DNA of 64,000 bases from Acephala macrosclerotiorum (taxonomy: Eukaryota; Ascomycota; Leotiomycetes; Helotiales; Mollisiaceae). This document shows, one piece after another, positions 26,747-54,567 of this stretch. Made by a program: the position numbers and the translations under genes. The first letter of the stretch is position 1; every line of letters starts with the position of its first letter. Under the pieces are notes generated by a model that saw only the letters and a list, made by a program, of their open reading frames with translations, did not search any database and was not told where the DNA came from. The stretch covers positions 1-64,000 of the forward strand of contig MU119368.1 of NCBI GenBank assembly GCA_014904845.1, given 5' to 3'.

Positions 26747-28203
26747 ATGGTTGCAGCGACAGGATCCATTTTGACGGCCGTCATCGCGGCTGTTGCATGG
26801 GGCCCGAATCGTCTTGATGTCTTCAGAACTGGCACTGCGAACAGAGATCTGCAACATCTCTGGTGGGATGGAACTCAGGTAAGTTTACCCAAAACCCCTC
26901 CTCTGATCACGTATTGTGAGTTAAGGCAAACTGACACTCATAGTGGGGAGGTGTGGAATCTCTGGGAGGAATCTTGACCTCTCCTCCTACTGTCGCAAGC
27001 TGGGCCAAGAATAGACTTGATGTCTTTGCTCTCGGTACTGATAGAGCGGCCTATCACAAATGTGAGATCTCGAGCATTGTTCTCCCTCCTTGAATATCAG
27101 CTAATGAAGCCTCTAGGGTGGGATGGCAGTGCTTGGTAGGCCTTCTATCTCTGTGAAGATGCTTCGTCGGATTATTGCATCTGTGTTTCATATCTTTCTG
27201 TTCCCGCTTTCGCGTGCTGAGCTAACTCGTCGAAGGGGAGGCTGGGAAGGACAAGGAGGAGTCTTCACTTCCAAACTCGATGTGACCGCCTGGTCCGCAA
27301 ACAGACTCGACTTCTTCGGCTTGGGAACTGACTCAGCATGCTACCACAAATGGTGGAACGGAGCCAGTGTTTGTTTCATCTCTTTGTTCTCTTCCACTTA
27401 CTGGCATCACAAGACCAACACCCAACTAACACATCTCAGTGGAACGGCTACGAATCTCTCGGCGGAGCCTTCACTTCCCCAATTACCTCCATCTCCTACG
27501 CACCGAACACACTCGACCTCTTCGGACTGGGCACGAATTCTGAAGCATACCATAAGTCGTATAACCCGACCTCAGGCTGGTCTGGATGGATTTCTATTGG
27601 AGGGGTGTTCACTTCCAACTTGGTTGCTACATCTTGGGGTGATGACGAGATAGATGTGTTTGGTCGAGGTACCGACAATGCATTGTGGTGGAACCATTGG
27701 AATGGTTTAACTTGGAGTGGTTGGTCGAGTTTAGGTGGAGTCTTCACTTCGGAGCCTAGTGTAGTATCTTGGGGATCTGGTAGGCTCGATGTCTTTGTGA
27801 GTCTTCTTTCCGTTGTCGTGGTTCTGGTTTACTGTGAACAAGACGATTGCAGTACTGACGTTTGAGCAGGGAATTGGGACTAATGGGGCTATGTACCATA
27901 AGTGGTATGCCTCTGGTGTTTGGGCCACAAGCTGGGAAAGTCTTGGAGGCGTGCTGCTGTCCGCCCCAACTCCTGTCTCCTGGGGTCCCAACCGACTCGA
28001 CATTTTCGGTATCGGAACTGATGACGCCGTCTACCACAAGGTAACCAACCTTTTTCTTCGTCTCGGCTTTTCAACTTTGCTGTGGAAGGGCTCCAGAGTA
28101 TGTTTAGACGTGCTCAACTTTCCTTTCTGAATGTAATACTCGTACTGATTCGTTGTAGTGGTGGGATGGAGCTGCTTGGGGTGGTTGGGAAAGACTCGGA
28201 TAA
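26747..28203 (+). CDS. PLL-like seven-bladed beta-propeller lectin (DUF346 repeats)
   Basis: Exons: 26747-26878, 26944-27061, 27117-27135 (19 nt), 27236-27368, 27440-27796, 27870-28040 and 28159-28203; 324 residues. The whole protein is seven repeats of about 45 residues with the pattern F-T-S-x5-SW-x3-RLDVFGxGTD-x4-YHKWWDG-x2-W-x-GWESLGG. This matches the DUF346 repeat of the Photorhabdus PLL/PHL lectins, which fold as seven-bladed propellers and bind fucose or O-methylated glycans. The conserved Trp and His side chains that line the blade sites in that family are largely kept. There is no signal peptide, so it is cytosolic or leaves by an unconventional route, as for many fungal defence lectins. 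The ligand cannot be read from the sequence. The family is best known from bacteria, so transfer is plausible. Confidence 0.88.
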
Positions 28204-30168: not shown

Positions 30169-33100
30169 TCAAGCAGCAGCAGCAACAAGATTCCCCGTGA
30201 CCATCGGCAAATACGGATAATAATAACCCAGCTCCTCGGCCAACACGCTGGGTGGTTCGCTGTTTAACTCCCACTCCTTCCTCAAGACTTTCCCATCCTT
30301 ACCCACTACATCCGGAACGACGCCTTGCACCTTCTCGACCGGACGCCTTTGATCCCACCCCAAAGCTGAGACTACCAATCCAAGAAGTCCGGACCCATCA
30401 ACATCGCCTCTGAGATCTTTCTTATCAATCTTATTTCCCGTTGCATCGAGCACAGAAGCATTGGCACCTTGCCCTGTCCAGAGATTTGCGAAGTCGTTCC
30501 ATTGAGGAACCGGAGCAGTCTCGGGCTCAAACGGCTCAGCAAGGAAGATGTCTTGCTCGGGATCTGCATCTGGCAAAGGAAGATCTTCAAGCGTCTCATT
30601 CATAGCCGCACTGGCATCAAAATCCACAATCTTACTATTCCCCAACACCGCCACAGGTGGAAATAATCTCACACCCTGACACAACTCCACAGTCGGATTA
30701 CTCCCATCTTGCAATGCAGTAGGTTTATTATGTTGGCCAGGACTGATGAGTTGCAAAGGGTCGTTATCTGGTGTGTATTGAGACCAAGTAGCGAGCGGTG
30801 ATTGTTTGAGTACTAACTCGGCGCGGAAATCGTGTTGCAGGATCTTGTGAGTTTCGCCGCCTTCGAGGAAGTAGATCCTAATGTCGAGGCGGGAGGAGAT
30901 GGGGATACTGTTGTACATTGGGAACGCAAAGATGGGTTTCAGATCCTGGGGAGGTGTGGTGGTTATGGCCGTTACTGTGGGTTTGGTAGGATCATCCTTA
31001 TCTTTTTCCGCAGTGATGATTTGAGCGGCGGAGAGGGAGAAATCGCAGTCGATGCGGATCTGGAGAGGACCGGCGAGGACTTTCCATTCGATTGTTGCGC
31101 CGGTGTTGGGAAAGGTTGTGCCATCGGACTTGGGCTTGGTAGGGAAGAGTCCTTCTTCGATGCTGTATTTGTGTTGGGCTTGGAATGGGTTCTTGGCTGT
31201 AGTCTTGTCATCTGGTGGTGGATCGCTGTCTGGTCCAGCTGTTCGGACGATCTCGTAGAATTCGACGAGAGGGATTCCGGGTGGGCTGCGAAGCCCGCTG
31301 CCGAAGTCGATGCTGAAGCCGAAGAACCAGAAGTGTACATATGCCGTCCCTCCGAATTGGTCGGGACCCCAAAGCGTCAAGTCTGCATCAAGAGAGATTG
31401 AGATGTGGATCGTTGCGAATAGGATGTCGATGTCGCATTCAACTCCGACGGATAGTCTGATCTCGGCGATGAAGTAAAATGGCTTGAAGTTGATGAAGAC
31501 ATCCAAGGCGATATCTGCATAGGCACTGACGGGCCCAACGTCTAGAGAGATGTGCAATGAGCCTCCTGCCATGGCACATTTGGGAGTAACTGCAACATAA
31601 GCTCCACCAACTACATGAATAGCGTTGCCGACTATAAAGTTGAGACCAAGTCGTTGTTCATTCTGCGGATAGTGATCTGGTGGGGTGTATGCCCGATGGT
31701 AGCCACCAATTGTCACGACCCAGTCTCCTGCGTGTGAATTGGGAGGAAACCATGTATAGAAGGACCCACTACCCGTTAAGTGTGCTTGAGGCACATAGAC
31801 GTGAGATGCTGGTGATAGCGCTGCATCGGCGGCAATGTACCCCTCGATGAAGTTCAACTCTACCTTGATCAAAAGTTCCACGTAGAAGAGACTGAAGTCT
31901 GGGGGCGCAAGCGGCTCCATTTGGAAGACGCCATCAGCCAAAAGGGCAATGATGACTCCATTTTGGTCAGAGTTCGTCTCGATCTCGAACATCAGGACTG
32001 CGGTGAGGGTGATGCAGTCGAAGCAAGTTATGGTCATGCCCTAGATATGTTAGCTTGGGAAGCTATTTATTGTCGGATACCCACAGCAGCAAACCAGACA
32101 CCTCCCTCCTTCGTGTAGACATACGGCGGGTTCGGCGGATCCCCTCCCTTGAAAGCGTCAAGAATCTTCCTCGGGTCGTCTCCTCCTGCAGCAGCATCAT
32201 TACTGATGAGAGGGAAGGTATAAAGTTGGTCCGCTCCTGGGAGATGCACAAGAGAATTGTACCCGAAGCCGAGACGAACACCTGAAATGGTCGCGAACTC
32301 AAGCTCCACGAGGGGACCGTCGAGCTTTCCGTATCTGCTTGGTCAGTATTTGTTGCGAAATCGAACATTGGCAACTCACATGAAGATTGATTTGTACTGA
32401 TGAGCGTCAGGTGTGAGATTCGTGACAATTGCATACTCTCCCACAGCAAGCACTTTCCATGCTTTGAAACCAACAGAAATACCGCCCCTATAACTCTCAA
32501 CAGATGTTGGCGGGCTGGCGCCTTCATTGATTGTAGTATCATGGATGAAGACACCCTTCAAGGTGAGAGGCGGCTTGTCAAGACCAGCCTCCAAGCCATG
32601 AATGTTGACGTGGATGAGGCCTTCTGTCAAGATATCGGCAAGATGGTTCAAAGTTATGGGATGATCGGGGTTATTGAGCTCAACTTCGATTGTGAAACCA
32701 ATGACACTGAATGTGATTGGACCGATGACCAGAGTTGCATCGACGCCGACGAAGAGAGATCCATTCTTGTATTGTAGGGAAAGAGCCGAAATACTCAATG
32801 GGCCAGCTTGAGTGTTTGAATCTCCCTTTGTGGCTGGTGCTTCCGGTGTGGCCTTGGGTGGCGAAGGTGGCGGGTTTTCGTCAGGAGGTATCTCGTTGTT
32901 TGTACCGTTGTTAGAACTTGTCTGACCACCGGCAGCAGTCTTCTTGTCCGGCTCAAATATGTGATCTAGAACAACCTTATTGTCTGAGACAACAACAAAG
33001 TGATGTCCAGCCAGTACAACCAGATCTTCGGGCTGGCCGCCTTTCTTTTTGATCTCCTTGAATTGGATCTGGGGGACGCTGATATCATCTGTAGCTTTGT

Positions 33101-36098
33101 TAATAGCCTCGATCATAGCTCTCGTGAATCCTTGAGTGTCTTTGTTCGTCGTTGCAACGGAAGCATCGTCCTCGACCCAGAGATAGACAAGATGATCGAA
33201 GGGTTGTGGAAGTTGATTGACAAGTGGAACCTTATCCATCTCGGGGATTTGGTCGCAGGAAATGCGCAAGATCTTCTTTACGAGAGCTGGTTTAGCTGTC
33301 GGAGTAGTTGTAGCAATTGATCGATACTGGATAAAAGTCATGTTGAAAGGTCCAAGGCTGACCCATACAACGAGAACAGAGCCCTTTGATTGTTCATCAG
33401 TGGGGGTAAAGAAATTATCGACCCGAGGATGGGACTCACAGTATCATTGCCGCCAGTGTATATCAATTTGATGGGTGCTTTGGTCGGGTCACCTGCTGCA
33501 TTGATAGGGATTTTACCAATGAAGTCCGGCAGTTCATCTCCTTTTCCATGGACGATGCTATTCGTGATGGACTTGATGTTAGACGATTGCGTCGTGGCAC
33601 CTAGGAAAGCCTCGAACTTCCATTGCGTTGTTCCGTTTGGTGTGATGGTACTGATCTCATCATGAGGTTTACCATCCTTCCACTTGATATCGGCAGCTGT
33701 TTTCTTCCCCGGGGTCACGTGTTTGCTGCTGACATACTGATAGCTGAGATCAAGCTCGAGTTCGCCTAATGTAAGTACTCCTGTAATGAGGAACGAAGAA
33801 GCTAAACCTGCATCGTAGGTATATATCATATTGAGGGAAGATAGGTTCAGTTGGCCAAGCACAGCCAGGGCACCGTCGTTAGCGGTGCTGTCGAAGAAGT
33901 AATTTGCGAGAAGGGCGACGGACAGATCCTGAACGGAAGCGCGAACGATCCAGGACGTTTCGCCACCAGCACTAGTGAAGGAGGCTCCAACATTGAGAGT
34001 GGCTGGAAGTATACTAGTATCATCACTAGTCTTTGGGGAGAGGGTTACTGTTGTGAAGATTTGCAATGATGTTGTCGCTTTTGAAGGAGTTCCAGAAGTA
34101 GCCTTGGTAGACATTTTTGATGCGCTGACCGAGATCTGACACGACAATTAGCACTCTCTCTATACACGATATTGACTCGAGTTGGTGAAGGAGAGAGGCT
34201 CTTCATACATTTTTCCAAACAAATCCGGAGGGAGCCTCGCTTGTATCACTTTCAATTGACCCCTTTGTTGTCAGATCCATTTGGAAAGTCAGAACAGAAC
34301 CGGGACCGAGGCCTGACACAGTGTCAGCGGCGATGGTTTGGTACGATACATCAGCAGCTGCAATTTCAAATGGAAGTCTGTCACTCTTCAACGACTTTGG
34401 AGGTGACCCATTATCAGTAAACAAAGTCCAAAGGTCGATTGTCGGAGGAATGTCATGTATGTCGATGTTCTGAGCCTCTAAAATATCAGAAGGTAGAGAG
34501 AGTCTGTGATCATATTCGGCCATTCTTGGACTGACGAGAATTGGATCGTTGGCGAGGATGAGATTGCCATGGAATGTCTTCGTCCTGGATTCGTAGCTCA
34601 GGCCGATTAGAACCGGGGTATTGGTACCTGCAGTCCAACTGACCAAAAGAGCGATACCCCAGCTTAGTGAAGAGGAAGTTGAATCTTCAGTTGTCGGCGC
34701 AGGTGCGGGGGTATTTCCATCCCCGGCAGGTCCACCGGCTGGAGCCGGATTTTCTCCCACGGGTGGTGGGAGGGGAGCTGCGGATGCCGTCTCGATGGTG
34801 AAGTCCTTGTTGAGGTGGACATACCAAAGGTTCAGATGATTGCCGATGATTTTGGTAAATGGGTCATTCTGGTCCGTCGATGATGGCCTATATTGAGAAT
34901 GTCAATGTTGGAGTACAGAAAAATGAGACTGCCCTTCAGGCTCTCCGACGTTGTCCAAGTCATATGCAAGAAAATGAAACCTTACATTGAGGCCACATCT
35001 AGTCCTGGAGTATCAAACCCTACAGCAGACCTCAAGTCATTGACGATTTGAGACAACGTTCCTGTGGGCAAAAGGTAGAAGCTCGTCTCAGTTTCGGTGA
35101 AGTCGAAGGCCAAGCTGAATGCCGCAATCCTGATTTGAACCGACAGTTGCCACTTCTCCACGGGAGGAGTGATCAGCTGCCCGCTGCCATCAAAGGACCA
35201 GGTAGTAGTTTTGGTCGGGCTGATCAGAATATCAGGTATCTTGTTGCCCAGTCCCATGAACTCCCTTTTCACACTTTCAGGGTCAATGCCCAGTCCGAGG
35301 TTAGTATTGATCCCTATAGGTAAATTAGTATGAGATTAGAAGATGATTCGGAATTGGAGGAGCTGAGGGGCCGAGTTCGTAGTTCTCGCGAAGAGCTCGG
35401 CTCTGGATATCTCTTCAAATAAAAGGGAAAATTTTACATACATGCGATGGCTCTCCCGACTGGGCTGCTAGCTAAGGCTTCAACACCCTCAGCGACAGTG
35501 AACGCAAATTCAAGCTTCGCCGTCGTGGTATGGGCTTCTGTCGTCGTCGTACACCAAAATGCATTTGGATTGGGGTTGGGAGTCGAAGACTCTTGCAGTT
35601 TGACCTGTACTCCCTTGGAAGGATCTATGATTTCTGCAAGGTCATTCAACTGCTTGTTCGCCTCAGAAATGCTGAACACCTTCCAGATATTGTTTTCTGA
35701 TTCTTTCCGTAGATAAAACTCCGTCTCACGTGCCACAATGGCACCTGTTGATGGATCTTTCTTGGGTGAAAGCACCATCACACCAGCTGTCGAACGTCAG
35801 TTTTGTCCGAGGAATCGCTGCGATTATACGAACAATCGAGGTCATCGCCAGTCCAGGCAAGATTTGAGATGGTTGTGCCTTCTGGCACACTCTTGAAATA
35901 GTCCGCATTTGATACGGATGAAAATTGAAGTCCCCAAAGATCCGCATTGGTAATGTTGACATCGGTGACACTGGACGTCGCATCCACGGAGACCTTTGCA
36001 GCATCTAAGATCTGCTTCCATGGTCCGACAGAAGCAGCTGCTGCATCAGTACTTCCACTTGCTAGCTGGACGAGGAAGCCGCTTGAGTCTGAAGCCAT
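30169..36098 (-). CDS. Giant DUF6603-domain protein
   Basis: Eight exons, high to low: 36098-35834, 35786-35442, 35313-34986, 34887-34209, 34135-33440, 33383-32380, 32334-32085 and 32040-30169; 1812 residues with every phase consistent. The N-terminal half has repeated beta-rich segments and a Pro-rich linker at about 346-375. A second linker (PPDENPPPSPPKATPEAP) lies at about 936-956. The DUF6603 region spans about 966-1450: GLDKPPLTLKGVF, YRGGISVGF, GKLDGPLVELEF, GVRLGFGYNSLVHLP and GGYHRAYTPPDHYP are the phrases I associate with the family. About 360 residues follow. There is no signal peptide or transmembrane helix. DUF6603 proteins are mostly bacterial and of unknown function. The gene is divergent from protein X, and Y lies further on the same side. 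An extra 5' exon cannot be excluded. Confidence 0.85.
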
Positions 36099-36894
36099 GG
36101 GAATTGCAAGAGCTGTGACGCTCTTGTCGGACCTGGCCGATGATCAAAGCATTTGTATCTTCAAGTTGTCGTCGTCGTCCACTGCTATCTCTACCGAAGG
36201 AGTATCCTCAGCGATTAAGCTCGCAGGACGTCACCTCGAGCTCACGACGACACAAAGCCTCTGCCGTGAAGGCATTGGCTGAAGCTCCTCCCCGCCATGG
36301 TCTCGGAATGAAGCTGAGAACTGTCGCCGCTTCATCGAGTCGTGCTGCCTTAGATGGGACATCCCGTGGGATTGCACTAGCGTCTGCGCCAAGTTGATGC
36401 AAGACAAAAGAAAGGTTGTGATGGTCTGATTGTGATGTCTCACGAGATGGTCAATTATGAGAGTTTTAGAAGACTTGCATGAGCTGAAATGGACACCTGT
36501 TTTAGCGTGCATGGACTTCATGCAGGTTTTTGGCGCGTGCAACCTCACTGCAACATCAGCAAACATCTCAGCAAGCCACGATGATGGCAACCTCCATCGG
36601 CAGAGCTATGGCGTTATGGGAAACTCAATTCGATGACTTACTTCGATATGCGCGTAGGGCAGCAAGTCGATCTCCTGCTCTCGAGACGACGCTGCGATGG
36701 CGGTCATGATGGGCTCAAGCTGCCAGGCGCGAGAACACGATGAACCGTGTACCCATACTTTGTGAGATGGAAGTATGATCGCGATTGACGCTTAAGCAAT
36801 TCGAGAATTGCTGTATAACTCTTTCTTAAAAAGCAGATGAAGATTCAATCGCGTTGATTCTTGTCTCTTTTGACACTTTAATCTCTCTGCTATC
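36099..36894. promoter_or_regulatory. Divergent promoter region between DUF6603 gene and protein X
   Basis: The two start codons, 36098 (minus) and 36895 (plus), are 796 bp apart, so one region probably drives both. On the minus strand about 36135-36200 still reads like protein (EDTPSVEIAVDDDDNLK) before a TGA, and could be part of a missed upstream exon or a relic. No TATA-like or zinc-cluster site stands out beyond an AT-rich stretch near 36820-36840. Confidence 0.45.
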
Positions 36895-39800
36895 ATGGCT
36901 CGAGTTCTGGCAAAGAAGAATATCTCCAAGGCGATCGTGCTCGCTGGAGACGAACCTGCAGAAAATGCTCAGGACAAACTTCTAGATGGGCATATGCGAT
37001 TGTACAGTTATTTCAAGCCAGGATTGAGTAAGTCTTATGATTTTGAGTTTGGTGTGTATTCTGACAGAAAGGAACAGAGGCGGGGTTGTACGGAATTGAA
37101 GCGAAGTAAGTGGTCCTCCTTCCGGATATTGCGGTATCTAGAAAAGGACCAAGATGTTGAACAGAGTACAGGCAATACATAGAAGCCAAGCATGATGGAC
37201 TCGATGAGAATCTCTCAGTCTGGAATTATGCTGGCAGTCTTCCCGATGGAAAACCAATCGACCTGAACTTGAACCCAACCACTCCAGCCCTTCGACAGGA
37301 ATTCTCAGTGCAAGCACCTCAATTCAATCTGGATCCGAAACTCATCAACACATTCTATCCACCCCCGGGCCACCAGGATGAGGGTCGAATTCTGCCTCAC
37401 ATCGTGTTCAATGACCCTCACGTGCCCTGGGTCCGAGAAGCAGGCGTATCATACAGTTTTCTCTCCGATCCGATCGACCCTTCGACCACACCTGGACCTT
37501 CTAGTCGAAATCTGGTGCCTTGGATGGCCTTGATTACCTTCGACCCATCAGAGCTGCAAGTCTCAGAAGCCGACGCGACAGCAATTGGTTTGAACGATCC
37601 TGGCAAGCCCGATGATGGCATCGAGTCGTACATGCCCTCCAAACTGCCAGCAGACGGAGCTTTCCAGATGAAAATTGGAGAGTATCTGTCTAAGATTACA
37701 ACACACCGAATCTACTATGAAGCTGGGTACGAAGGCGACGGAGAGCAAGACTTTGAAGATTTGAAGGGGGAAACAGATATGACGAACGTGATCTTCCCCC
37801 AGAAGTCGTTGATCAAACAAATCTTGGGGTCCAAAACAACATCGGACATCCCAAATCCTGTCCCGGTTGGCGAAGATAGGATTTTTGAGGGTCAAAAGGT
37901 ACTTCTAAGTCCCTTTGACAATGCCTAACGAAAGAAAGCTAATCTTACTAGATGATGGCACATGTGAGGCACGTGAATACTCTAGGATTTCCTGATGCCG
38001 GAGTCGAAGAGGAAGGGTATTACTCAGTGGTCGTATCTTCAAGGACTGGAGAGGTACACAGCAGCGCCCCCACTCCTCAAGTCGTTCACCTAGTCTCGCT
38101 CGAACATTACGACTCGACCTTGATGCATCCAAGTTCTTCATTCCCGAGTCTAGAAGATACGGATCGTGTTGGGCTTGTCTCACTCTTTTCATGGACGTAC
38201 ACATGCATTCCAGAATCCGTGAACTTCACAGACACCATGAGAGCTATTGCTTCAGATGCCCAGTTCCTCAAACCACCACAGACATCTCTCGCGAATCTTT
38301 TGACAGCACATCAGATAACACCAACTCAGAAAGAAGCCGCAAAGCTCCTTCATGATCGACTCAATAAGTCGTACACCATCTCCAGATGGAGAACAGCGAC
38401 TGGTGAAGAAACTGTCGCCTTCAATCGAGGACCATTGGTGGCTGGTCCAACTCCCATTGTCCCTGCTAAGGCCAAGAACTGGCCCAAGTTATCCATGACG
38501 GGGAAGGACTACCAAATCTTCGATCGTGATTTGGGCATCATAGATCTGACATACTCATCTGCTTGGTCTTTGGGGAAGCTAGCTGCCATCTCAGATTCGC
38601 CTTTTAATGCAGCTCTGCTACGATTCAGATCCTTAGTCTGGACCAAAGCATCATCAAATACGAGGATGCTCACCAACAATATCGCGCAACCAGCAGCAAT
38701 CTTAATGAACGCACATTCGGCCATCGATACGGTTCGCGTGTTACCTAGCACCTTTTCCGGTGGTGTTACTCGTATCAATCCTCACTCTACAGATGCAGTT
38801 GCTCCCCCCCTCTCCTCACCTGAAGTGGCCCCGATATTCGCCAAGGCCATCCAACTGGCGGTTGACAGATACTCCAGCAGTGTCGATGGAGAATCAATTT
38901 ACAATGACTTCCATCTAGCACAGGCAGCCAACGCTGACTGGGAGCTGATCCTAAACTGGATCAGCGATTGTTTGTATTTGGCTCATATTCCAGGTAAGAC
39001 ATAATCTCACTCTCAAGACCTGATCTCCATCGTGTGGACATGCAGCACTTCCTCGGTCTTTATAGGACGGACATGGAAGTTATTTACTCATTGAAATTTC
39101 CAGCACATTATCTCTTCCCGGAACCGAGCCACATTCGGGCTACACCCAAAGTCACCCAGGAAATTGTTCCAAATTTACCACCGGAAGCTTTACGCTTCTT
39201 TTACATCGACCACGCTTGGATTGACTGCTTCATCGACGGTGCCTTGAGCTGTGCCAATCACCTCGAGCCCGACTACGACTCAACACGCCTCCGTATCAAA
39301 GAAGTATATAACTACTACCTTAGCAGCAACATCCATCCCCTTGAGGGAGTTTCGCCTCCTGTCCCTCGATTCGGCTTCGTCTTCAGATCATCTGTGGTGA
39401 AAGCAATGCCGGATCTGAAAATCACTGTATCGTGCTGGCTGTTTGACGCAAAGAACAGCGTCTTCGTCGAGGACACAAATAAGCCTCCGAGGAATCCAGT
39501 TTTGAGACTGACTAAGATGGATGACTTCACGATTCTGTGTTTGCTGGATTGTCTCCCTGAGGAGATTAATGAGATTAAAATCGCTCAGCCACCTCACCAG
39601 CAACGCTATGCTATGGGAGAATCGTTGAAACCTGCTGCTGATGGCTCAATTACAGCAGAGCTTCTAGTTAGAATGTTATACACTTCTGAAAAGGATGCCC
39701 CAGAAGGAACAGGATCACATGGGGAATGGAGGCTCCTGCCTGATGGTGTAGATCCTCCGGGAACCACCGATCCGGACGAGCAACCATCCCACGCTGACCA

Positions 39801-41084
39801 GGTGTCATACTACAATGATAAGACTCGATGTATCAATCCAATTGCGATCACTCAGAGCGTGAACGACATTCTACAGAAGTCCAAGAAGTATCCGAAGATG
39901 TATATCGACGACGTGCCCAACTCTTGCGTCCTTGGAATGGAGTTGAGCGATCCAGCGTGTGAGTCATCCCCGTACTGGAGAGAACGTAGCTGACAACAAC
40001 AGACTCTTTGACAATCCACCAACCCAAAGACACTCCTCCTGGATCCGACAACTATCTCCCCCCAACTCGAACCAAAGACTTCGACAAATGGACCCGCCAG
40101 CTTTGGCTCGGAACGTCCCCCGACCCTCAACCCCACGACCCTCAAGGCACACTCTCAACCGCCAACCTTCCTTCCCAACCTCTAATACCATCCACCTCTC
40201 CCGACCCAAACAAAATCACTCTCCCAGACACTGGCATCCTCCCCGCCATCCCTCGCCTCCCCGATCCACCCCGCCTAAACTCCAGCTCAATAACCACCCT
40301 CCCACCCTTCAAAACAACCTCCACCCCCGGACCAGGCCAAATTTCCTCTGCACAGTTCACTCTCTTGGTACACGTTGATTACCGACCCCCTCCCCCCACA
40401 CCCTTACTAGCCAATAACGGACAACCCGTCTACGCGCCCCTTGACTATTTACCTACTGATACGCAATACCTCTACGACATCATCATCGCTATCCGTCGCA
40501 AGAATCCAAATCTTTCACCCGGATACAAGCTCTCCGAACTCAGGATCGAAATGCCTATCTCACCCGATGATAAAGACCTCCCTAATTCTCATGGAATTGT
40601 GCGAGAGCCGCTTTTCAAAATGGGTGGGTATAAAGGCCCGGGGGCTAGGATGGTGAGGAATCAGAGATTTGTGCCGACGTTGTATAATTCTACGGATGCG
40701 GGTGGTGGGCCGGTGTTGGGCATCAAATTGATCCCTCGTTCCGGACGTCAAGACGCAACGATCCAGCTGATGAACGACAGTCGAGCTTCTGAAGCTAGTG
40801 TGAGGCTAGCAGAAGTTGAGATTGCCCCAATAAGGCAAAGTCTTAATGTTGCGATTGCGCAGATTGATGGGGCGGGGAAGGGGTTGAATCAGGTGAAGAA
40901 TGAAGGGAGAGGGATCGTGAAATTGGTGTTGAGGGAGACGTATGCTATGAATGATGGGACGATGAGTACTGTTGTTACGGATGGGGAGGTCAAGCCGGTG
41001 CAGAGAGGTAGGCAGCCGGAGTTGGCATTGGTTTGTGTTAAGAAGGGGGGTGGGGATAAGGATTTGTTTGGTAATAATGTTTGA
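36895..41084 (+). CDS. Giant conserved protein X of the DUF6603 cassette, unknown function
   Basis: Six exons: 36895-37027, 37078-37105 (28 nt), 37172-37898, 37952-38993, 39104-39958 and 40003-41084; 1288 residues. Visible marks: an N-terminal RLYSYFKPGLKAGLYGIEAK, then a sentence-like block with DPHVPW and VPWMALITFDPSEL (about 110-165), a YLAHIPAHYLFPEPSH segment at the exon 4/5 join followed by LPPEALRFFYIDHAWIDC, a Pro-rich stretch in exon 6 and a beta-rich C-terminus ending in DKDLFGNNV. These phrases resemble large bacterial hypothetical proteins I associate with DUF6603 neighbours, but I cannot confirm this without a search. There is no signal peptide, membrane segment or enzyme motif. 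A structural or scaffold role beside DUF6603 and Y is a guess from context. Confidence 0.8.
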
Positions 41085-41908
41085 AAGACGGATCGAGGGA
41101 TTTTGTTTGTTAGGTTTGAGGTCAATGTAGGTTCTCGAGTCGGAGTTTCGTTGTACATCGACTCCTAGCGGACCTTCTGCAGGCAGCACTGGTGGTTCGA
41201 GCTTATCTGTATCCAGATTAGTTTTAACGTAAATGTTCGAAAGTCAAGATCTTATTCCAAGTATCAAAGAAGGCTCAAAACCCCTCTCTTGACCTGGGAC
41301 ATTAGATCAAATTCCGTTGCACATCTACATCTAGCCGACGCGCTCCAGACAACTCTAGTGCCCGCCTTTATCTGAATTCACCTTATTCCAGCTCCTAGGT
41401 GTGAGTGTTCAAAAGTGAAAATTCCCTCTTAGCATATCAAAGAAACCTACAATAGCTTCTCCAGGAATGGGACATTAAAAAAGGTTCGTTGCACATCTTT
41501 CCGATTTCGGCAAGACTTTCCTGTCCGACACCCTACTCTATTTGGTCTAGTTCATACTCACTCTTGCATGATCATCCTCTTCCTCACCTTCAACTTTTCA
41601 GTGAATATTTAAGTGGTCTGGGACAAGTATTGGATTTTGTTGCACATTTCCGTCTTGGCGAATCTTTCCTGGGAGGTGAGCCTAAGTGCAACCGCCTCCT
41701 TTGGGGGCGTAGGCACTGAGTGAATATCTTGACTTTGATAGTCTTCGAGCAATTTGAAGGGAGAAGAATCTGTAGGATTAAACTTTGCTCATTAAATGCT
41801 GTTAATTATGCATACAATTTATTTTCCCAATCACTACCAACCAATCCCAAACGCCCTTTTGAGCTCTGAACATACAACCCACCCCATCTTCTCAACCCCG
41901 ACCTCCAA
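41085..41908. repeat. Intergenic region with three degenerate repeat copies
   Basis: Between protein X and the claudin-like gene. A core GTTGCACATCT, preceded 10-25 bases earlier by TGGGACA, recurs at 41316, 41488 and (as GTTGCACATTT) 41639. More loosely matching flanks begin with GTTCGAAAGT or GTTCAAAAGT at about 41235 and 41407. The unit is about 150-170 bp and strongly diverged. No gene is present. Confidence 0.5.
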
Positions 41909-42766
41909 TTACAAGAATTTCTCCCACCGAGGAACCCGATACACCATCCCCACTCCCACCGCTCCCACACCAGCAAACGTCCAAGCAACAGTTGCGTAAG
42001 CTGTTAAAGCTTTATCCATGATCCATGGCGTGGCGCCTAGGATATCTGGATTATGTTGAACAGCTTGGTCTGGGAAGGGAGTTCCGTTTATTGTCATTCC
42101 GAGGACCCCGAAGAATTGAGCGACGAATTGGAGGATTGCTCCTATGCTTAGGAAGAGGATGGTGGCCAAGATGAGGGGTGGTGTGAAGGGTGAGAATTTG
42201 TGCCTAGGCTGACGGTGGTGGGCGTGATTGTCCGGTTTTGGTGGACTGGAGGAAGTTGCTTCGACTCCAGGTTCGGAAGCTGACGATCGCGAAGATCCAA
42301 AACCCAACAAGATATTGGCTGCCGTTATAGGAATCAGGAGTATGAGTCCCAAGGTGATGAATACAGAAGCAGCAATCTGCAAATTCCCCGTCCAATGTAC
42401 CTCCTGACACTCCTGCTCCCCAGCATTCGTCACACTATTCGGATCCGTATCATTCGTCTCAGCCGCGAGTCTACAACTTGTTCTATTCCTTCCATATGGT
42501 GCGTAGAATTGACAGTTTGGTACGGTGCAGATGGGAGGGGAGGCGGTGGTGTTTATTATGGGGGGTTCGCAGCGGTAGAATGGGGATTTGTGGGCGACGC
42601 AGATGGGGGAGATCCAGTCTGCGCCGAGGGCTGCAGAACCGTCGGTGTTGAGGTAGTATTTCTGAACGGCCCAGCGGGGAGAGGTGAGGGCGAGGAGGAC
42701 GAAGGTTGTTGAGACGATTGAGAGGGCGAATATGAAGAGGGAGGAGAGGACGGCTCTTCGACGCAT
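41909..42766 (-). CDS. Four-transmembrane SUR7/claudin-like membrane protein
   Basis: A single exon of 285 residues. I start at 42766 (MRRRAVLSSLF) because this puts the first membrane helix at the N-terminus. Helices: about 6-28, 130-155, 196-223 and 252-275. The first extracellular loop is long (about 29-129) with six cysteines and NTT, NRT and NDT glycosylation sites. The loop between helices 2 and 3 is Ser/Pro/His-rich and cytosolic. This topology is that of fungal SUR7/PalI/claudin-like plasma-membrane proteins, which act in eisosomes, fusion or pH sensing; which of these applies is unknown. It separates proteins X and Y on the opposite strand, so it may be a chance neighbour or an accessory of the cassette. 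Confidence 0.75.
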   Translation of the reverse strand: MRRRAVLSSLFIFALSIVSTTFVLLALTSPRWAVQKYYLNTDGSAALGADWISPICVAHKSPFYRCEPPIINTTASPPICTVPNCQFYAPYGRNRTSCRLAAETNDTDPNSVTNAGEQECQEVHWTGNLQIAASVFITLGLILLIPITAANILLGFGSSRSSASEPGVEATSSSPPKPDNHAHHRQPRHKFSPFTPPLILATILFLSIGAILQFVAQFFGVLGMTINGTPFPDQAVQHNPDILGATPWIMDKALTAYATVAWTFAGVGAVGVGMVYRVPRWEKFL

Positions 42767-43893
42767 GGCGAGGCTCTGATATTCGATGTGGAAAAGGGGA
42801 AAGTTATCGTCCTCGGAACCCTTCCCAGAAATCGTGGAATGCTGCAAGAAAGACCTTGTATGCTTGGAAGAAGACTGGTAGTGTGTGAGGTATGTATTCT
42901 GTTACAAACACTTGAGGTCTGTCTGGCTGTGCGAAGTTCGGAGGTACATTTGCCCAAGCTCTCTTTGTTGCCATGGGGTTTGGGTCTCTGAATCGTCACT
43001 TTGCTAGGTTGGAGCAGTGGCTGGCTGGAAGCAGTAAGCATAAGCAACAGTGAGTGCCAAGATAAGATGATGCGATATGAGCAGTCGAAGTGCAGTGGTA
43101 TCGTCCGCTCCATGTCTCAAGCTTCTGAGCCTGTTGGAAGAAGCGTTATGCAAGCCACTCGGCTCGCAGAGGGCTGAGAATGTGACCCGATGATAGGGCG
43201 CCATTCTCCTGCTGCCCTATGGATGTTTCAATGAGCGTTGGAAGAAGCAACTTCGAGAGAGACGGAAAGGTTGCAATGCATATGCACGAGTTTACCCCAC
43301 GGCGCAGGAATTTCCCCGATATCAAATTAAGCTTAGTTTCAAGCCCTCGCCGCTTTTACAGCCCCTCAACCTCATTTTTCTCTCTTTTCCTCACTTCAGC
43401 TCCTGCATCTAACAGTCTCGTCTTTAACTATTGGAGCAAGTCTCAAAACAACTCAAAGCCCGATCTTGGCAATGTTTCTTGGCAATGTTTCTCAACGTGA
43501 GATACCGCTCGAGCATGCACCAGAGCTGCATGCATCCAAAAAAGCATCAAGGCATGCATCTGATGCATTTCATCTCGACGGAGGCCGCCTGTGCACCAAT
43601 CTGGCCACCTGAGAGCTCAGAAACACCTCCCAGCTGCTCTTAGGATGACTCGGCTCATCGAACAAGTCCTAACGAGCTTCAAGACAGTCTTCGAACACTG
43701 AGGAAAGGTTGCTGTCATCTCAGTCACGTGAAAATCCCGTGTCCAGAATCAACATCGACAGAGTAACTGCCAATGCTTTGGGAGCGTCTATTTGACACAA
43801 GTTTCAAATTATTGCTCCACTATCGGTTCTTTGCGGGCTGGTTCTTGTCTATGAGTTTTCGAGCAGGCGGGAGATGATCCAGGGATAGCCAAA
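42767..43893. other. Intergenic region, promoter of protein Y
   Basis: 1.1 kb shared by the divergent claudin-like gene and protein Y. A CATGCAT-rich stretch occurs at about 43510-43565. No supported gene. Confidence 0.45.
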
Positions 43894-46800
43894 ATGTTGG
43901 ACCCAATTTGCATCCCAATAAACCTCGATGCCTTCGTACTCAATAAGCCAGTCGTCGACACGACAGGAAATAAAGTGCTCATCGCTCCCATTACCCAGCC
44001 GGACTATGTTGGGTTACGATTAGACAATTCTGTCATCCAGGTAAGTCTTCCGTGGCATTTTGGACACCCATCTAATATTTCCAGCACGATGTCCTGCCTC
44101 CCGTGGATTTACATTCCAGCCGTCCAGCTTCTGTGAATCCTCGCATCTCCCAAGCATATTCTGCTCAATTAATCCCCGTTGTCATCAAAGACCCAAAACC
44201 AGACTTTGCCAGCAGCGACAATGCAATCATCCAATCTAGGCTTGGAGTTTACCTGCATTGGTCACTTCCACGAGGCTACAGAACTGGGTCCAGTGGTGCT
44301 GATGGTGCTCAAAGATTCGATCCAGATGACACAACCAAGCCGCCAGTGAACGCAACTGCACCAAATCCTACTTTTCGTCTTGTGCCAAACAGATGGCTCG
44401 TTGTGAGAGTGTTGAAGAAACATTTGCCACCTGAGGCGAATCCTCCTCCAGTTGACGCTTGGATTATCGAGTCTGATCGCCTGCAGAAGGTTGAAGAACT
44501 CCCTGGTGACATTGACCTTGAGACAGAAGTCACGCCGTTCTTGGCCTATGACTCCAATCCGGACTCGACAGTTTCTGGAAACCTCCTCCATGCTCAAGCC
44601 GAGAAGTACATCGGGTACCGGTCACCAAGTTTAGCCCAAACAGCTTACTCGGAGACGAATGCCCCACGTGTTCCTTTGAGCGTGATGAACTCCTCAAATC
44701 CAGTGTTCGCTGACTACACCATTCACAACCCGAATGTTTTCTCGATGAAAGATAATTTCGAGTATGAGAACGGCAAATACCTCTCGTACGCTCTTTGTGA
44801 CTACATTGTAGTCGGATGGCATAGCTCTTCGGGGGATTCGCCTTTTGGCGACAATGGTCTCAAAGGTGTTCTCAATGGAAGAGTGGAGAACTTCTTCTGC
44901 AAGTTGGCTGCGGATGCGCCGACGGCTGTGCAAGGCAGCAGAGACAAATTACCTGCTCTTTCGCATGGAACAATATACAGTGTTGAGTACAACGCAAATG
45001 TCCGTCCCAATACGGACGCAGACAAGTATGTTGAGAACTTCGGACAGGGTGTAGCAATGGAGCCTGTCGCCGTGGGAGCAACACCTCTGGATTCGGTGTT
45101 AACATTCCTTCACGCTCATCGAGACGATAAGACAGACGGAGAGAACATCCTGGGTGGTATCCCCAGTGAGACAGCGAAGACTCTTCTAGACATGGCAGAG
45201 CTGCTCCATGCAACAGGTGAGCGCTTTGGTTCTTCACATGTGCCACGTGATGCCATCTTGATCTTGTGGGCTAACATCTCATAGCTGATGACTACGATTC
45301 CAGAGTCAAGGCAGCGGACTTGATATCTGGCCAGAGCTTTAGAACTTCTCTTGGCGGATTCACGTGGCATTACGACAGAAAGAAAAAATCTAATGACCCA
45401 CCGCAATCCCCTGACAGAATCAAGAAAGATAGCGCTGGAAAGACTGAGCTCGACTATCTGAATGATCTCAACCGCCTTCAGCAACAGCTTGATATCGCAG
45501 ACAGAATGCTAGCTACTAAACGATGGGAGCTGTTCGCCGAGTTCTTCAAGTATTGCTCAGATGTGAACAACCTCAAGAGCCAGAACCGGTATTTTGATGA
45601 GATGAAGGTGCTTTTTGGTGTCGAAACGCTGCCTGGCGGGGCAAATACTGTTCAGAATGGACCGAAAAGCACGATCCAGTCACTTCTCGATATCAAGAAT
45701 ACTCTCACAGATAGCATTAGGGCGATTGCCAATGAGGACACCCCGTCACTGTCCAAGATACCCGTCAAGAAGGTAGCTGCAGATGTGTTCAGGCAGAGAA
45801 CCGACCCTACTTTGCTGCTAGCAGGTATCGACGCAGGATGGCCAGCTGCGTTCTTGGACTACCTTCAGATCCGTTTTGGTGGTGAGGTCAAGGCTTCATC
45901 GACCCCAGAAGTCTCGCAGCTCATGAACAATCTAAATATCCCGTCTGCCTCTGGGACAATCAAGTCCACAATTGAGCTCTTGTTAAATGAAGCCAGAAGT
46001 GGAACTGCAACATCTGAACTCGGTTTCAAGACCTGGTCTGGACAACCATTCTGTCCCATCTTCGTGGAATGGGAAGCCATATTCTACAACATTGATGCTT
46101 CTCAATGGGCCGTAGCACTCGGAAGCTCACCAATGAGCAACAACAATCAAAGTCAAGTTCGATACATCAACCCAAATCCGCTTCAAGAGCCTACCAAATT
46201 GAGTGATCAAGACACTCGAGCAGTGTCGGGTCGTATTCTGGTGCTGCCTCAGCCATCGTTCACTCTTGCTGCTATTGTGAAGCAAGTTCTCGATGTCGCG
46301 GGCGTCAATGTCCCTGAAGCTTTGCAGCAAGAGGTCACAGCGACAGATGGAACTAAGTCTTTGAATGGAAAGTTAGATCAGGACAAGTTGGCAGACTTTG
46401 TGAAGAAAGTTGAAGGATTGAAGTTCATCAGTGGCGATTTGATGGGTTTCACAGATAGTCTCTTAACACTTGGGACTGGGTCACATGTAAAGCCAAATGT
46501 GCGGGAACAGGGTCAAGGTATCAAAGTTCTTGGTGAAGCTAAGGACATCATCAAGAAAATTGGATTCAATGATGACCTAGCAGAGCAGATGATCATCCAA
46601 ATGGGGAGCGAGACTGCGAGGACTCCTTTCGGAACACTTGAAGACTTCGAAGGTTCGAGTTTCCAACCTTTCAAGGGTGTTCAACATGGCCAACTTGGTG
46701 AGTAGATGTTTAGAGGTCTTCCCAAGTTTCAACTGCTGACTGAATGCCCAGCTATTACCAAGATCACGATAGTGGACAAGTTCGGACAGGCTATCTCCTG

Positions 46801-48684
46801 GCCGCTACCACAGAGAAAATCAAGACTGCCTCCGCCGGTACCTGACTTCGAAATTCACCCGTGTATTGCAGATCAGCTATGCCCAACCGTGCTTCCAGAC
46901 AATACTCTGAATACTGTCTTCCCAACCACGGACAAATTGACTTCATCCGGAATGATTTTGAGTCCGTTCATTCAGATCACACCAGCCATCAATCAAACAT
47001 CAAGAATCAACGCACACTTCTTAAGGAAGGACCTTGATGCGAATGGGAACCTGCAATCCCCGCCTTGGACCATTTGTAATGATTGGGACAATCCGATCAT
47101 TGGCTGTAAGTCACGAAATCCTCATTCTTGTTCCCTTCTGACGCCACACAGGGATCGTAGTAAACTACCCCGACTCATCTCTCCAATTCTTCACCGGAGA
47201 TGGCATATTCTACACCTCCCTCCGCTTCGGCGGTCCCCTCGGCACCGTCACCGGAATACAATGGGCGCCTTTCTCCTCTCCCCCACCCTCCGTCGCCTCT
47301 CAGCTTGTATCCCAACAACTCGTAGACCTAATCCACCAAATGCAAGGTGATCCCACAGACACCACAAAAACAGAAACAGCACAAGAATACCTAAGAGCAA
47401 TGTGGGGAATGATCAATGGCGCCATAGGCAATATGCCGTTCCCTCCTTCACAGTATTCGGCGTACGCTAATGCGATTGTTGGGAAGCCGCTGGCAATTGT
47501 CAATGTGGGGTGGAGTTTGGAGTTGGCAGAACCGCCGTTTAAGCATCAGCATACGCTTGGGAGTCAGCCCCCCGCTGGGTATGAGGAGAGCGTTATGGGG
47601 CAGTATAAGTTTCCTGTTAAGATTGGTGACGTGAGTACCGTATCTGTACTTTGTAAGAGATGATGGAAGCTGATATGAAGTAGAAAGAGCGTCCTTTCGA
47701 TGGCGTAGTTTGCTATTGGGATACGGACAACAACATTTCCACCAGCACAGCAACCACCACCTTCAGTAAAATCTACACTTATCCATACCCGGAAACCTCC
47801 ACCAGTTCTCCTGATCCCAATATCCCCGATCCAAGGACCATGATCGAACCAGATACATTCCCAGCCCTAACACCCTATTTCATTGACCCCACACAGGTTG
47901 ATGAAACAAAAGGATTGCTGAAAGCAAAAGCTGAGAAATTGTTGGTGAAGACGTTGTTGATCGATCCTTACACGCCGTTGCATTTGTATAGTGGAATCTT
48001 GCCGATTAAGAGCTTGCAGCTGCCAGGGTGGAGTTTGGAAGCTGCGATGAAGAATATGAGTTCGTGTTCCTCCCTCCCTTAATCCTCGCTAGCTGTCTTT
48101 CTTTGGGGCGTTCTTCTTTTTAAAGTACCGGTTCTTGAAGATGAAAATCTAACACCCAAAAGCCGCATTCTTTACCCTCGGCCCACTCCTTCTCACCAAA
48201 GACGTACCCAAGGAATACAACTCTGCCGCACCGCTCCAAGCAGACACTTGGATCAAAGACCAAGATTCAAATGCTGTCACTGACCCGACGAAGAAGGAGG
48301 ATGCGTTCCCGATCAAGTTGCCTATTGCTGGTGGTAAAGGGTACGTTTACGTTTTCCACCCAATTTCTCCTCTCCTTGCCCGCTCCGCTCCGCCCCTCTG
48401 GCTTTCTCTCTTTCCTCCTTCCATCCCCTACCCACATTCCCAGCTAGTAAGAGCGAGGGCTGACCTCAAAATTCAGAATGTGGAATTTCCTCCAACCATA
48501 CCCCGACCCAACTACCCCACCCGCAGGTCAAACCAAGAAACCACTCTACAATGCATTAGAAGTAGGGCAAGAACCAGGGACTTTGAGAGATGATCCGGCG
48601 CCGTACACATTTGTTGAGGGGTTTTTGCAGTTGGCGAGGCCGCTTGTTGATGCTGGTGCGGCGGCAGGGGTTGTTGGTCGTTAG
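43894..48684 (+). CDS. Giant conserved protein Y of the DUF6603 cassette, unknown function
   Basis: Eight exons: 43894-44040, 44085-45216, 45285-46697, 46752-47105, 47152-47630, 47684-48059, 48163-48340 and 48477-48684; 1428 residues. Recognisable blocks: LGVYLHWSLPRGYR (about 90) and VPNRWLVVRVLKK (about 135), a coiled-coil-prone helix (about 481-530), a long middle with FCPIFVEWEAIFYN (about 675), and near the C-terminus LLIDPYTPLHLYSGILPIKS with MTAFFTLGPLL at the exon 6/7 join. I know similar phrases only from large bacterial proteins of unknown function. There is no signal peptide, membrane helix or known catalytic motif. It lies on the same strand as protein X. I infer that it forms a functional set with X and DUF6603; a search for conserved neighbourhoods would decide. 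Confidence 0.8.
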
Positions 48685-49420
48685 GGGCTGTGAGGAGGGT
48701 GGATGAGAGGAGCGGAGAAGCGGAGGGGATGGATGGAGGCCGGATGAGAGGGGGAGTATGAGATTATTTGGTGTGGATGTATTTCGTTATCAAAGTTGAC
48801 ACTTCACTTTCTGATCCGGGGACCTGGACTCTTCAGATCAGCGTGCACTTTTGTTCATTGGATGGAATCGGCGACCTGAAGCAAACAGCTGATTCTGCTT
48901 CCTACTAGACCTCAATGACAACTTGCCTGCTGGAAGTTTGGCAGCTACTCTCTCCGAAGGCCTCTGCGCCTCAAACCCGCACAAGCTAATGATGTGGCCC
49001 CACTTCAGCTTGAGGTAGACAAAAGAGTGGATGCGGAACCGTTGCGGAGCCGCATGTCGATCCGGGGTATATGCAGCAGCAGTAAGTGCGGGGTCAGACA
49101 GGGTGAGTCAGCTTCCAATCCATGTATCATGGATATTCAGTGGCTGAAATAACCATGGTTTTGATATTGTCTGAGGGGAAATTTGACCCTACAGCTTTCC
49201 TGCGGACCCGATTCAGTTCGCCATCAGTCATCTTGTGACTGGAGAGCGTTTTGGAGCAGAAACCTGAAGGTGTTATGTTTAAACTCTCTGAAATAGGGCA
49301 AGTCTGACCAGTCTACTTAATCCCATCCGTCCCCATTCCTTTCTTGCTTATCACTACATCGCTGCTGCTCACCTTTCATCTTCAGATATCTTTCAAGTTA
49401 ATCAACAAACACCATCCAAA
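48685..49420. promoter_or_regulatory. Promoter of the Baeyer-Villiger monooxygenase gene
   Basis: 736 bp between protein Y and the monooxygenase. Two inverted CGG pairs lie at 49034-49041 (CGGAACCG) and 49045-49052 (CGGAGCCG, inside TGCGGAGCCGCA), 11 bp apart and about 370-390 bp before the start codon. CGG triplet pairs are the usual targets of Zn2Cys6 regulators, and a gene for one lies just downstream. A CT-rich leader (about 49320-49400) precedes the ATG. Confidence 0.5.
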
Positions 49421-51179
49421 ATGGGAACCCCCAGCCGCTTCCCCATCAAGTCCGAACTCAAAGAGTTCGCCAACCGCCGCTCCACCACCGGCCGCTACGC
49501 AGACACCATAACTCCCGATGTCCTCATCGTCGGCGCTGGCTTCGCAGGCGTCTTCCTCCTCTACCAGCTCCGCAAACGCGGCTTCGACACCGTAATCTAC
49601 GAAGCCGGTGACGGCCTCGGCGGTACCTGGAGATGGAACCGCTACCCTGGAGCACGCGTCGATTCTGAAGTCCCAGAGTACGAATTGAGCATCCCAGAAG
49701 TCTACAAGGACTGGACTTGGACGACCAATTATCCGAATTATCAGGAACTGAGAGCGTATTTTGACCATGTGGATAAGGTGCTGGATATCAAGAAAGATTG
49801 TGCATTTGAGAGTGTGGTTGTGGATGCGCAGTTTAATGAGGGAGAGGGAAAGTGGCATGTTAAGACTGAGGATGGAAGGGAGGCCATTGCTAAGTATCTT
49901 ATTGTTGCGGCGGGGTTCGCTGCTAAGCGGTATATCCCTGAGTGGAAAGGATTGGAAAAATTCAAGGGGATCATGCATCATTCTTCGTTCTGGCCTGATG
50001 AGGGAGTTGATGTGAAGGGGAAGAAGTGTGCAGTCATTGGTACTGGCGCCTCTGGTGTGCAGATCTCACAGGAATGGGGACCAGAAGCGGGCGAGCTCAC
50101 GGTATTCCAGCGCACCCCCAATCTTGCCATTCCCATGGGCAAACGCCCATTGACAGCAGAAGAGCAGAATTCTGGAAAGCAATGGTATCAGCGACTCTTT
50201 GAGTTGCGTGAAAAGTGTTTTGGTGGTTTTTTCTTCACGTTCTCTGAGAAGAACACATTTGACGACACTCCAGAAGAACGCGAGGCTTTCTTCCGCGAGT
50301 TGTGGAATCATGGTGGATTCAGGTACTGGCTGGGAAATTACAAGGACTACCTCTACGACGCCAAAGCCAACAGAGAAGTAAGTGATGATTCTGATCTGAT
50401 CTCACCCCGATCCCGAGAATTTCGCTTTGCAATGCTAACTCCTCCACCAGGTTTACGACTTCTGGTGCAAGAACGTTCGAGCTCGAATTGGAGAACCCAG
50501 ACTTCGCGACCTGCTTGCGCCATTGGAGCCTCCTCATCCATTTGGCGTCAAACGACCATGCTTGGAGCAGCACTACTTCGAACAGTTCAATCGACCAAAC
50601 GTTGACATCATTGACATCAAAGCCAACCCAATTGAGGAGTTCACTGCAGAGGGAATCAAGACTGCTGATGGAAAAGTTCACGAGTTTGATGTCATTGCCA
50701 TTGCTACCGGATTCGATATCACCACTGGTGGTATGACGAACATGGGATTGAAGAGCATTCACGGCACCACATTGAATGACGAGTGGAAATCAGCAGCAAA
50801 CACCTATCTTGGAACTACCATCAGCGGTTATCCAAACATGTTCCATCTCTATGGACCACATGGTCCAACACTCCTGAGCAATGGCCCTTCCACTATTGAA
50901 GTTCAGGGGAGATGGATCGTGGATACCATTACGAAGGCGGAAAGAGAGGGTCTCAAGTATATCAATCCAACAGCGGAGGCAACGAAGGAGTGGAAGAAGA
51001 AGATCAATCACTTGTCTGATATCAGTTTGTTCCCGACCACCAAGTCAACGTACATGGGAGGGAGCTTGCCAGGGAAAGCTTTTGAGCAGGTGAACTACGC
51101 AGGTGGGATCCCAGCTTATGCAGTGGAGATCAGAAATGCCTTGCCTGGATGGAAAGGCTTTACAACTGTGAAGGCATGA
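49421..51179 (+). CDS. Baeyer-Villiger-type flavin monooxygenase
   Basis: Two exons, 49421-50377 and 50451-51179; 561 residues. FAD-binding GAGFAG at 38-43 is followed by GGTWRWNRYPGARVD at 67-81, the classic Baeyer-Villiger/N-hydroxylating signature. The Baeyer-Villiger fingerprint FKGIMHHSSFWP spans 181-192 (FxGxxxHxxxWP), and the NADPH Rossmann motif GTGASG is at 207-212. An ATGFD motif lies in the second exon. It should insert oxygen beside a ketone carbonyl using NADPH and O2, giving an ester or lactone; the substrate may be an alicyclic, aromatic or polyketide ketone. There is no signal peptide. It is tail-to-tail with a Zn2Cys6 regulator, with a beta-lactamase-fold esterase beyond, suggesting a ketone-degrading module. 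Confidence 0.93.
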
Positions 51180-51558
51180 TGTATTAATCAATGCAAATTT
51201 CCCTCCTCGGACTTTCAAGTACGAAGTGTCCAATCGAAGATGTGATTCCATTGTGCTCTAACCCTCCCTGGGTGGTAAGTTGATTTGTTGGCTATGTTCT
51301 CCCTCGATAAAGAGCGAAGATATGGGGAGCTGTGCCATACACATAAACGCAAACAATTCTTGCCGCAAGTACCGCATCTGAAGAATTTCAAACGACAAGT
51401 GTCCAAAAAAAAAAAAGTATCCAGCAAGCTTTTCACCCTTGAATGTTTTATGCTGTCCTGTTTTAGTGTTTGTGACTCTATTTTGACGAGCAGGGGACGA
51501 ACTTTCAACTTTGTATGTTTTGCTGACTGATTTGTGTTAACTAGTGAGTCGACTTTTC
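51180..51558. other. Convergent 3' region
   Basis: 379 bp between the ends of the monooxygenase and regulator genes. It holds a run of 12 A at about 51405-51416 and nothing else I can support. Confidence 0.5.
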
Positions 51559-54500: not shown

Positions 54501-54567
54501 TATTTTGGCGGCGGCCTGTAACAGAGAAGCTCGTATGGCGATCTTTCGGGGACGTTTGTGTCTTCAT
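51559..54567 (-). CDS. Zn2Cys6 transcription factor
   Basis: Two exons, 54567-53210 and 53128-51559, with an 81-nt intron (53129-53209, GTGAGT donor); 975 residues. The zinc cluster is at residues 25-58: C25-x2-C28-x6-C35-x12-C48-x2-C51-x6-C58, preceded by GRRQNRS. A Ser-rich linker and basic stretches follow (for example KRRRRSRM). The middle is helical, and the C-terminal half resembles the fungal-specific transcription factor region, with LERENEILLRESRG as a short coiled coil. It probably binds CGG triplets in the nucleus. Paired CGG-N2-CCG sites sit in the promoters of the two enzyme genes on either side, making it the likely pathway-specific regulator. The 3' splice choice is the only one I found that keeps the frame. 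Confidence 0.85.

Follow-up and report, generated by a model that had tools for sequence, protein, structure and literature searches.

The window analysed here, 64,000 nucleotides of a contig of the root-associated fungus Acephala macrosclerotiorum, lies in a 69.7 Mb genome and contains three giant intron-bearing genes between positions 30169 and 48684 (Table 1). Gene D encodes a DUF6603 (PF20248) protein, while X and Y each represent a large protein family absent from Pfam. Homologues of the three co-locate in many genomes, ruling out a chance arrangement, and D, X and Y are proposed to be parts of one system.

Table 1. Features of the D-X-Y cluster, in window positions
Feature	Position	Strand	Remarks
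Gene D (DUF6603 protein, 1812 aa)	30169-36098	minus	Gene model from raw sequence; splice sites; PF20248; 8 exons/7 introns
Gene D exons 1-4, transcript order	36098-35834, 35786-35442, 35313-34986, 34887-34209	minus	
Gene D exons 5-8, transcript order	34135-33440, 33383-32380, 32334-32085, 32040-30169	minus	
DUF6603 domain (PF20248) of D	31243-32813	minus	Last two introns lie within the span
Gene X (1288 aa)	36895-41084	plus	6 exons/5 introns; identity to P0121
Gene X exons	36895-37027, 37078-37105, 37172-37898, 37952-38993, 39104-39958, 40003-41084	plus	
Gene Y (1428 aa)	43894-48684	plus	8 exons/7 introns
Gene Y exons 1-4	43894-44040, 44085-45216, 45285-46697, 46752-47105	plus	
Gene Y exons 5-8	47152-47630, 47684-48059, 48163-48340, 48477-48684	plus	
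D-X intergenic stretch	36099-36894	none	Separates divergent D and X
Open frame between X and Y (330 aa)	41909-42901	minus	No Pfam match; hydrophobic stretches by eye

The cluster and its fungal relatives

The gene models confirm the three sizes given in the original prediction. All 19 introns are GT-AG, each frame has a single stop and the genes are intact. The X protein and P0121 (NCBI BDZ45DRAFT_678781, A. macrosclerotiorum; Mollisiaceae, Helotiales) agree at 1288 of 1288 residues. The naming of D also holds. PF20248 matches residues 962-1455 at 409 bits against a cut-off of 27, making D a clear member of a family whose function Pfam, too, states to be unknown. Pfam returns nothing for X or Y at E<=1 (the X model scanned carried 8 extra residues at intron 4). 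The claim that the proteins lack a signal peptide or membrane helix is upheld to the extent of a crude hydropathy scan, with 19-residue maxima of 1.10 for X (P0121), 1.45 for Y and 1.96 for D. The D maximum, at residue 981, falls inside the DUF6603 domain, where the modelled homologue has strands. The phrases thought to belong to large bacterial proteins are present in X (SYFKPGLKAG, VPWMALITF) and Y (GVYLHWSLPRG, PNRWLVVR, SGILPIKS), but they are not exclusively bacterial: the closest relatives of both proteins among the matches listed are fungal.

Homologues at E<=0.001 number at least 260 for Y, at least 263 for X and at least 34 for D, of which the best 120 of 260 and 120 of 263 are listed for Y and X. 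Y is 93% identical to a Phialocephala protein over 100% of the query, and D is 74% identical to one from Tricladium. The named eukaryotes among the matches listed are fungi only, mainly Pezizomycotina, with Y also present in the chytrid Spizellomyces and an Amanita. The genes adjoin by locus tag in Exophiala (LTS15_005213 X, 5214 D, 5215 Y) and are close together in Cladophialophora (H2200_008180 D, 8181 X, 8183 Y) and Phialocephala (PAC_14911 D, 14910 X). Contigs were equated by length, as a proxy. Among the best 24 of 34 D matches, leaving the 10 weakest rows aside, 16 are then on the contig of at least one listed X or Y match, 7 of them on a contig with both. Contigs with both a listed X and a listed Y match number 21.

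Metagenome Y matches of about 900 residues with a bacterial look were rejected as bacterial evidence. The two inspected, P0058 and P0085, end just past VQHGQ, the end of Y exon 3, and so resemble fungal exons read into an intron. The A. macrosclerotiorum genome has a second DUF6603 gene on contig C298, in an X/D pair (C298:2322-12541; genome G000, loci L006-L007) that is divergent as in the window; the first 30 kb of this 63-kb contig contain no Y match.

The prokaryotic operon and its two types

A scan of the Y alignment against 84,980 prokaryotic species found 51 loci at 49 distinct places, since L013 and L052, at the opposite chromosome end, repeat L009 and L019. Best-segment identity to Y is 20-27%, with one short segment at 39%. 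Hidden Markov models (HMMs) of fungal X, fungal Y and mixed D homologues were run on the six-frame open reading frames (ORFs) of these loci. D, X and Y are all present on one strand (plus) in 43 of the 51. ORF ends place them in the order D-X-Y in 42, and in L039 X lies partly in the same open frame as Y. Seven of the eight incomplete loci are at contig ends: L015, L023, L027, L029 and L036 begin inside Y, and L043 and L049 are short contigs starting within or just before X. The eighth, L048, has a truncated Y, with X and D absent in the 9 kb upstream. In several lineages, such as Mucilaginibacter, Nitrospira and Janibacter, X is split between two neighbouring open frames, one matching profile 21-515 and the other 606-790.

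Y occurs in eight plasmid records, and annotated plasmids show the same layout, a ‘DUF6603 domain-containing protein’ followed by two hypothetical proteins. The cluster is spread through the NCBI phyla Actinomycetota, Bacillota, Bacteroidota, Pseudomonadota, Myxococcota, Nitrospirota, Planctomycetota and Acidobacteriota, and the archaeal example is one contig of a metagenome-assembled genome (MAG), possibly misbinned. Judged by gene models and exon-level HMM matches, the window likewise holds D, X and Y homologues at one locus. It departs from the usual bacterial layout in the divergent orientation of D and X and in the presence of one frame between X and Y.

To avoid selection by Y, genomes were also sampled by PF20248 alone. 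The family exceeds its cut-off in 12 of 396 Actinomycetota, 13 of 193 Myxococcota and 9 of 299 Pseudomonadota genomes, and in none of 14 control genomes. Each phylum sample includes its centring genome, drawn from the Y set; the remaining 31 loci were tested, a set that leaves out fragments in G571 and the sub-threshold G430. One group of DUF6603 proteins (D') is divergent and is followed by different giants, X' and Y', for which models were made from the open frames next to five (X') and six (Y') D' genes. X or X' adjoins D in 31 of 31 loci, and Y or Y' is found in 26, among them L098 with a match that is weak and partial. The remaining five are cut, L092, L094 and L097 by a contig end and L133 and L135 by the end of the examined stretch. 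In L095, L096, L099 and L100 the X' or Y' match arises by construction, as each model applies; the rest of the 31 are independent. Five extra loci from Y-set genomes (L102-L106) all contain X or X' and Y or Y', with a single X'-Y' pair serving two D' genes in L105. An exception is the Paenibacillus plasmid L110, which has X and Y without D.

The first 250 or so residues of X' and X are related (hhalign E 6.5e-10, probability 97%), and Y' has no detectable kinship to Y (E 0.29). The constant part is therefore DUF6603 with an X-type N-terminal domain, and the third protein varies. It is proposed to call D-X-Y the ‘DUF6603-X-Y system (type I)’ and to treat D'-X'-Y' as a second type.

The Myxococcota loci L104, L129-L132 and L134 have the order Y-D-X. 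D open frames are 3251-3518 aa long in all five of the Pseudomonadota loci L143-L147; the two scanned, L143 and L147, gave no further Pfam domain. Streptomyces olivoreticuli (L009/L019, L013/L052) has a pair of D-X-Y operons close to one end of its chromosome and a second copy of the pair at the opposite end. A conserved protein family is encoded upstream of D in three distinct loci of Streptomyces, L009 (= L019), L012 and L028; its member in L009, the only one scanned, has a sub-threshold M91-peptidase match and an HExxH motif by eye. In L009 and L012 the gene ahead of it resembles the N-terminal part of the L021 D. A subtilase gene lies between the two type II DUF6603 genes of L105, a Nitrospira MAG.

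Common history and probable transfer

The fungal proteins lie behind one branch in each of the three trees, with a support of 100 in the Shimodaira-Hasegawa-like approximate likelihood ratio test (SH-aLRT): 25 of 61 rows for Y, 24 of 53 for X and 19 of 52 for D. This is not the pattern of three genes with unrelated histories. All trees are unrooted and quick, with long branches, those of X and D were made without a mixture model, and some of the P-numbered rows are metagenome proteins. The fungal Y branch itself is long, at 1.68 changes per column. As drawn, the trees of D and Y repeat the same prokaryotic groups, which do not track phylum; the archaeal MAG contig groups with a myxobacterium and actinobacteria. 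A mirror-tree comparison over 24 prokaryotic loci gave r values of 0.955 (D-X), 0.955 (X-Y) and 0.901 (D-Y), against a permuted maximum of 0.44.

The simplest reading of the trees is a single entry into fungi as a module, which was then retained. Transfer from bacteria to a fungus, as the original prediction had it, is likely given the breadth of the prokaryotic distribution, with which it fits; the trees, being unrooted, do not fix the direction. The fungal Y proteins form two groups, the second of which includes the chytrid and Amanita proteins, hinting at duplication or transfer within fungi.

The idea that D, X and Y act together, also put forward at the outset, is supported, as an inference, by their conserved neighbourhood and correlated history. 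Far from never meeting DUF6603, X and Y homologues accompany it at 43 of the 51 Y loci, and X or X' does so at all 31 loci chosen by DUF6603. A domain of unknown function with a giant partner at every one of 31 loci sampled has fixed partners, of at least two types, in nine prokaryotic phyla and in fungi. The compact bacterial operon allows the function to be tested as a unit. The cluster is also a rare instance in which an entire multi-protein module seems to have passed between bacteria and fungi and then remained intact.

The proposed assembly and its alternatives

One D homologue was modelled as a continuous beta-meander, with a predicted local distance difference test score (pLDDT) of 82 and a predicted template modelling score (pTM) of 0.63. 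D is predicted to be one long amphipathic beta-meander, and the alternation over 31 strands was beyond that of all 2000 shuffles. Its best Foldseek match is ApoB-100 (E 1.3e-4), followed by the usher PapC (E 1.8e-4). For Y, Foldseek found no match at E<=0.001 among PDB and viral models, and its VIA-align rows fall mostly on a helical hairpin at 352-460, so that the rest of Y was barely probed. Directly 3' of Y, 33 of the 51 Y loci have a fibre-like gene, Z. One Z carries an S74 endosialidase-chaperone domain, one X has an inserted cellulose-binding domain (CBM_2), and tail-collar genes lie near some bacterial loci.

The proposal is that D, X and Y form the core of one multi-protein assembly. 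The long amphipathic sheet of D would provide a hydrophobic tube, a pore or a lipid-holding surface, around which X and Y would act as scaffold or cap subunits. Where Z follows Y, as in many bacteria, it would form a trimeric fibre that directs the assembly to other cells or surfaces. The bacterial assembly, probably released and aimed by the fibre, would exit without a signal peptide, perhaps when the cell lyses; an extracellular role is the least certain step. In fungi, where no fibre is recognised, the core would have been retained, probably as a weapon of defence or competition or as an internal container. The whole of this reading, including a fungal core only, is tentative and is given a probability of roughly 0.4.

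Several observations weigh against it. The Z models derive from 14 proteins of the same loci, and 21 of the 33 Z loci, including two repeat copies, contributed no row to them. Z is not in place in 18 of the 51 Y loci, 16 of which have more than 1.2 kb after Y. Searches for Z at E<=0.1 were negative for the window frames of at least 40 aa and for the opening 30 kb of C298. Fungal X shows no likeness to Z either (hhalign E 0.23), and the case for a fibre may therefore not hold in fungi. The cellulose-binding domain was seen in 1 of 41 X proteins scanned. The mirror-tree correlations, calculated without a control gene, are inflated by background descent. Structure models cover D and Y, and superpositions of D on porins and ApoB have large root mean square deviations (rmsd; VIA-align 8.8-17 A, top rows 13-14 A), leaving a shared fold unproven.

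Of the alternatives, an intracellular or lipid-moving assembly is the best placed, if still unlikely. D would be a giant beta groove binding lipids or metabolites, in the manner of ApoB or the bridge-type lipid-transfer proteins, with X and Y as partners. The ApoB match is weak, however (template modelling (TM) score 0.15 by query, 0.26 by target), and Z, the tail-collar genes, the cellulose-binding domain and phage-type matches at some bacterial loci point outward. Toxin delivery of the Tc kind is a slightly poorer candidate, with D as channel or cocoon, X and Y as the body, Z as receptor fibre and neighbouring enzymes as cargo. The three giant proteins per operon, often with a fibre gene, suit it, as do the protein upstream of D in the three Streptomyces loci and the Nitrospira subtilase, yet Tc, Rhs and pore-former Pfam domains are absent from the D, X and Y scanned, and each candidate cargo family was seen at a few loci at most. 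A little lower again comes a surface coat, matrix or adhesin, in which the proteins would build a layer or fibre on the cell that makes them and would not serve as a weapon. X and Y have no catalytic Pfam domain, and CBM, LamG, kelch and tail-collar matches lie in or near some loci; the sparse occurrence of DUF6603 in the three phyla surveyed and the eight plasmid records with Y are more like an accessory function.

That the fungal cluster is not of bacterial origin, being old in eukaryotes or having moved from fungi to bacteria, is improbable. Unrooted trees and the long fungal Y branch leave room for it, but prokaryotic homologues span nine phyla and the named eukaryotes among the matches listed are all fungi. 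Hardly credible is the notion that X and Y are chance neighbours of DUF6603: L110 and L048 would fit it, and the co-occurrence at 43 of 51 and 31 of 31 loci has already refuted it.

The preferred assembly shares features with several known systems. Tc toxin complexes likewise comprise several giant proteins per operon with a part that, like the proposed Z, binds a receptor. In contrast to them, the D, X and Y scanned show only DUF6603, CBM_2 and a sub-threshold fn1 match in Pfam, and nothing in the PDB matches Y at E<=0.001. Tail-fibre-like, S74 and tail-collar proteins near some loci are reminiscent of extracellular contractile injection systems and tailocins, but sheath, tube and AAA ATPase families are absent from the 25 of 41 families listed for 79 neighbours. 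One Y and one D query matched none of 50,697 phage records. D, as predicted, has in common with ApoB-100, ushers and porins a long antiparallel amphipathic beta-meander; it differs in its low Foldseek TM scores (no more than 0.26 in the rows listed) and large rmsd, in its partners X and Y, and in that no signal peptide was seen in the crude scan.

Further searches gave little. No relatives of X or Y were found in viral contigs, and PDB sequence profiles gave a best E of 0.23. Six proteins of two bacterial loci returned a sub-threshold exoglucanase match at the inserted CBM and nothing else from NCBIfam, and, in a scan limited to these, no anti-phage defence family from PADLOC. PHROGs matches were weak (E 0.075 or worse), except at one Planctomycetota locus, the X and Y of which match phage structural-protein families. 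DUF6603 and PF20248 were not found in the open-access papers searched, a set that lacks most subscription journals and all bioRxiv preprints; a broader search listed a single article, on polymorphic toxins (PMC3482391). PF20248 is an existing family; its fixed partners X and Y and its fungal cluster are reported here, and the D-X-Y gene set is apparently undescribed.

Other genes lie around the cluster. The frame between X and Y probably encodes a membrane protein, judged by eye; it is not known to be part of the D-X-Y system. About 2 kb from D, short open frames with repeats at 27117-27865 (plus) have a sub-threshold PF03984 match, and the repeats resemble those of PLL-type beta-propeller lectins. 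On the 3' side of Y, genes for a flavin monooxygenase and a Zn2Cys6 regulator occupy 49292-54600.
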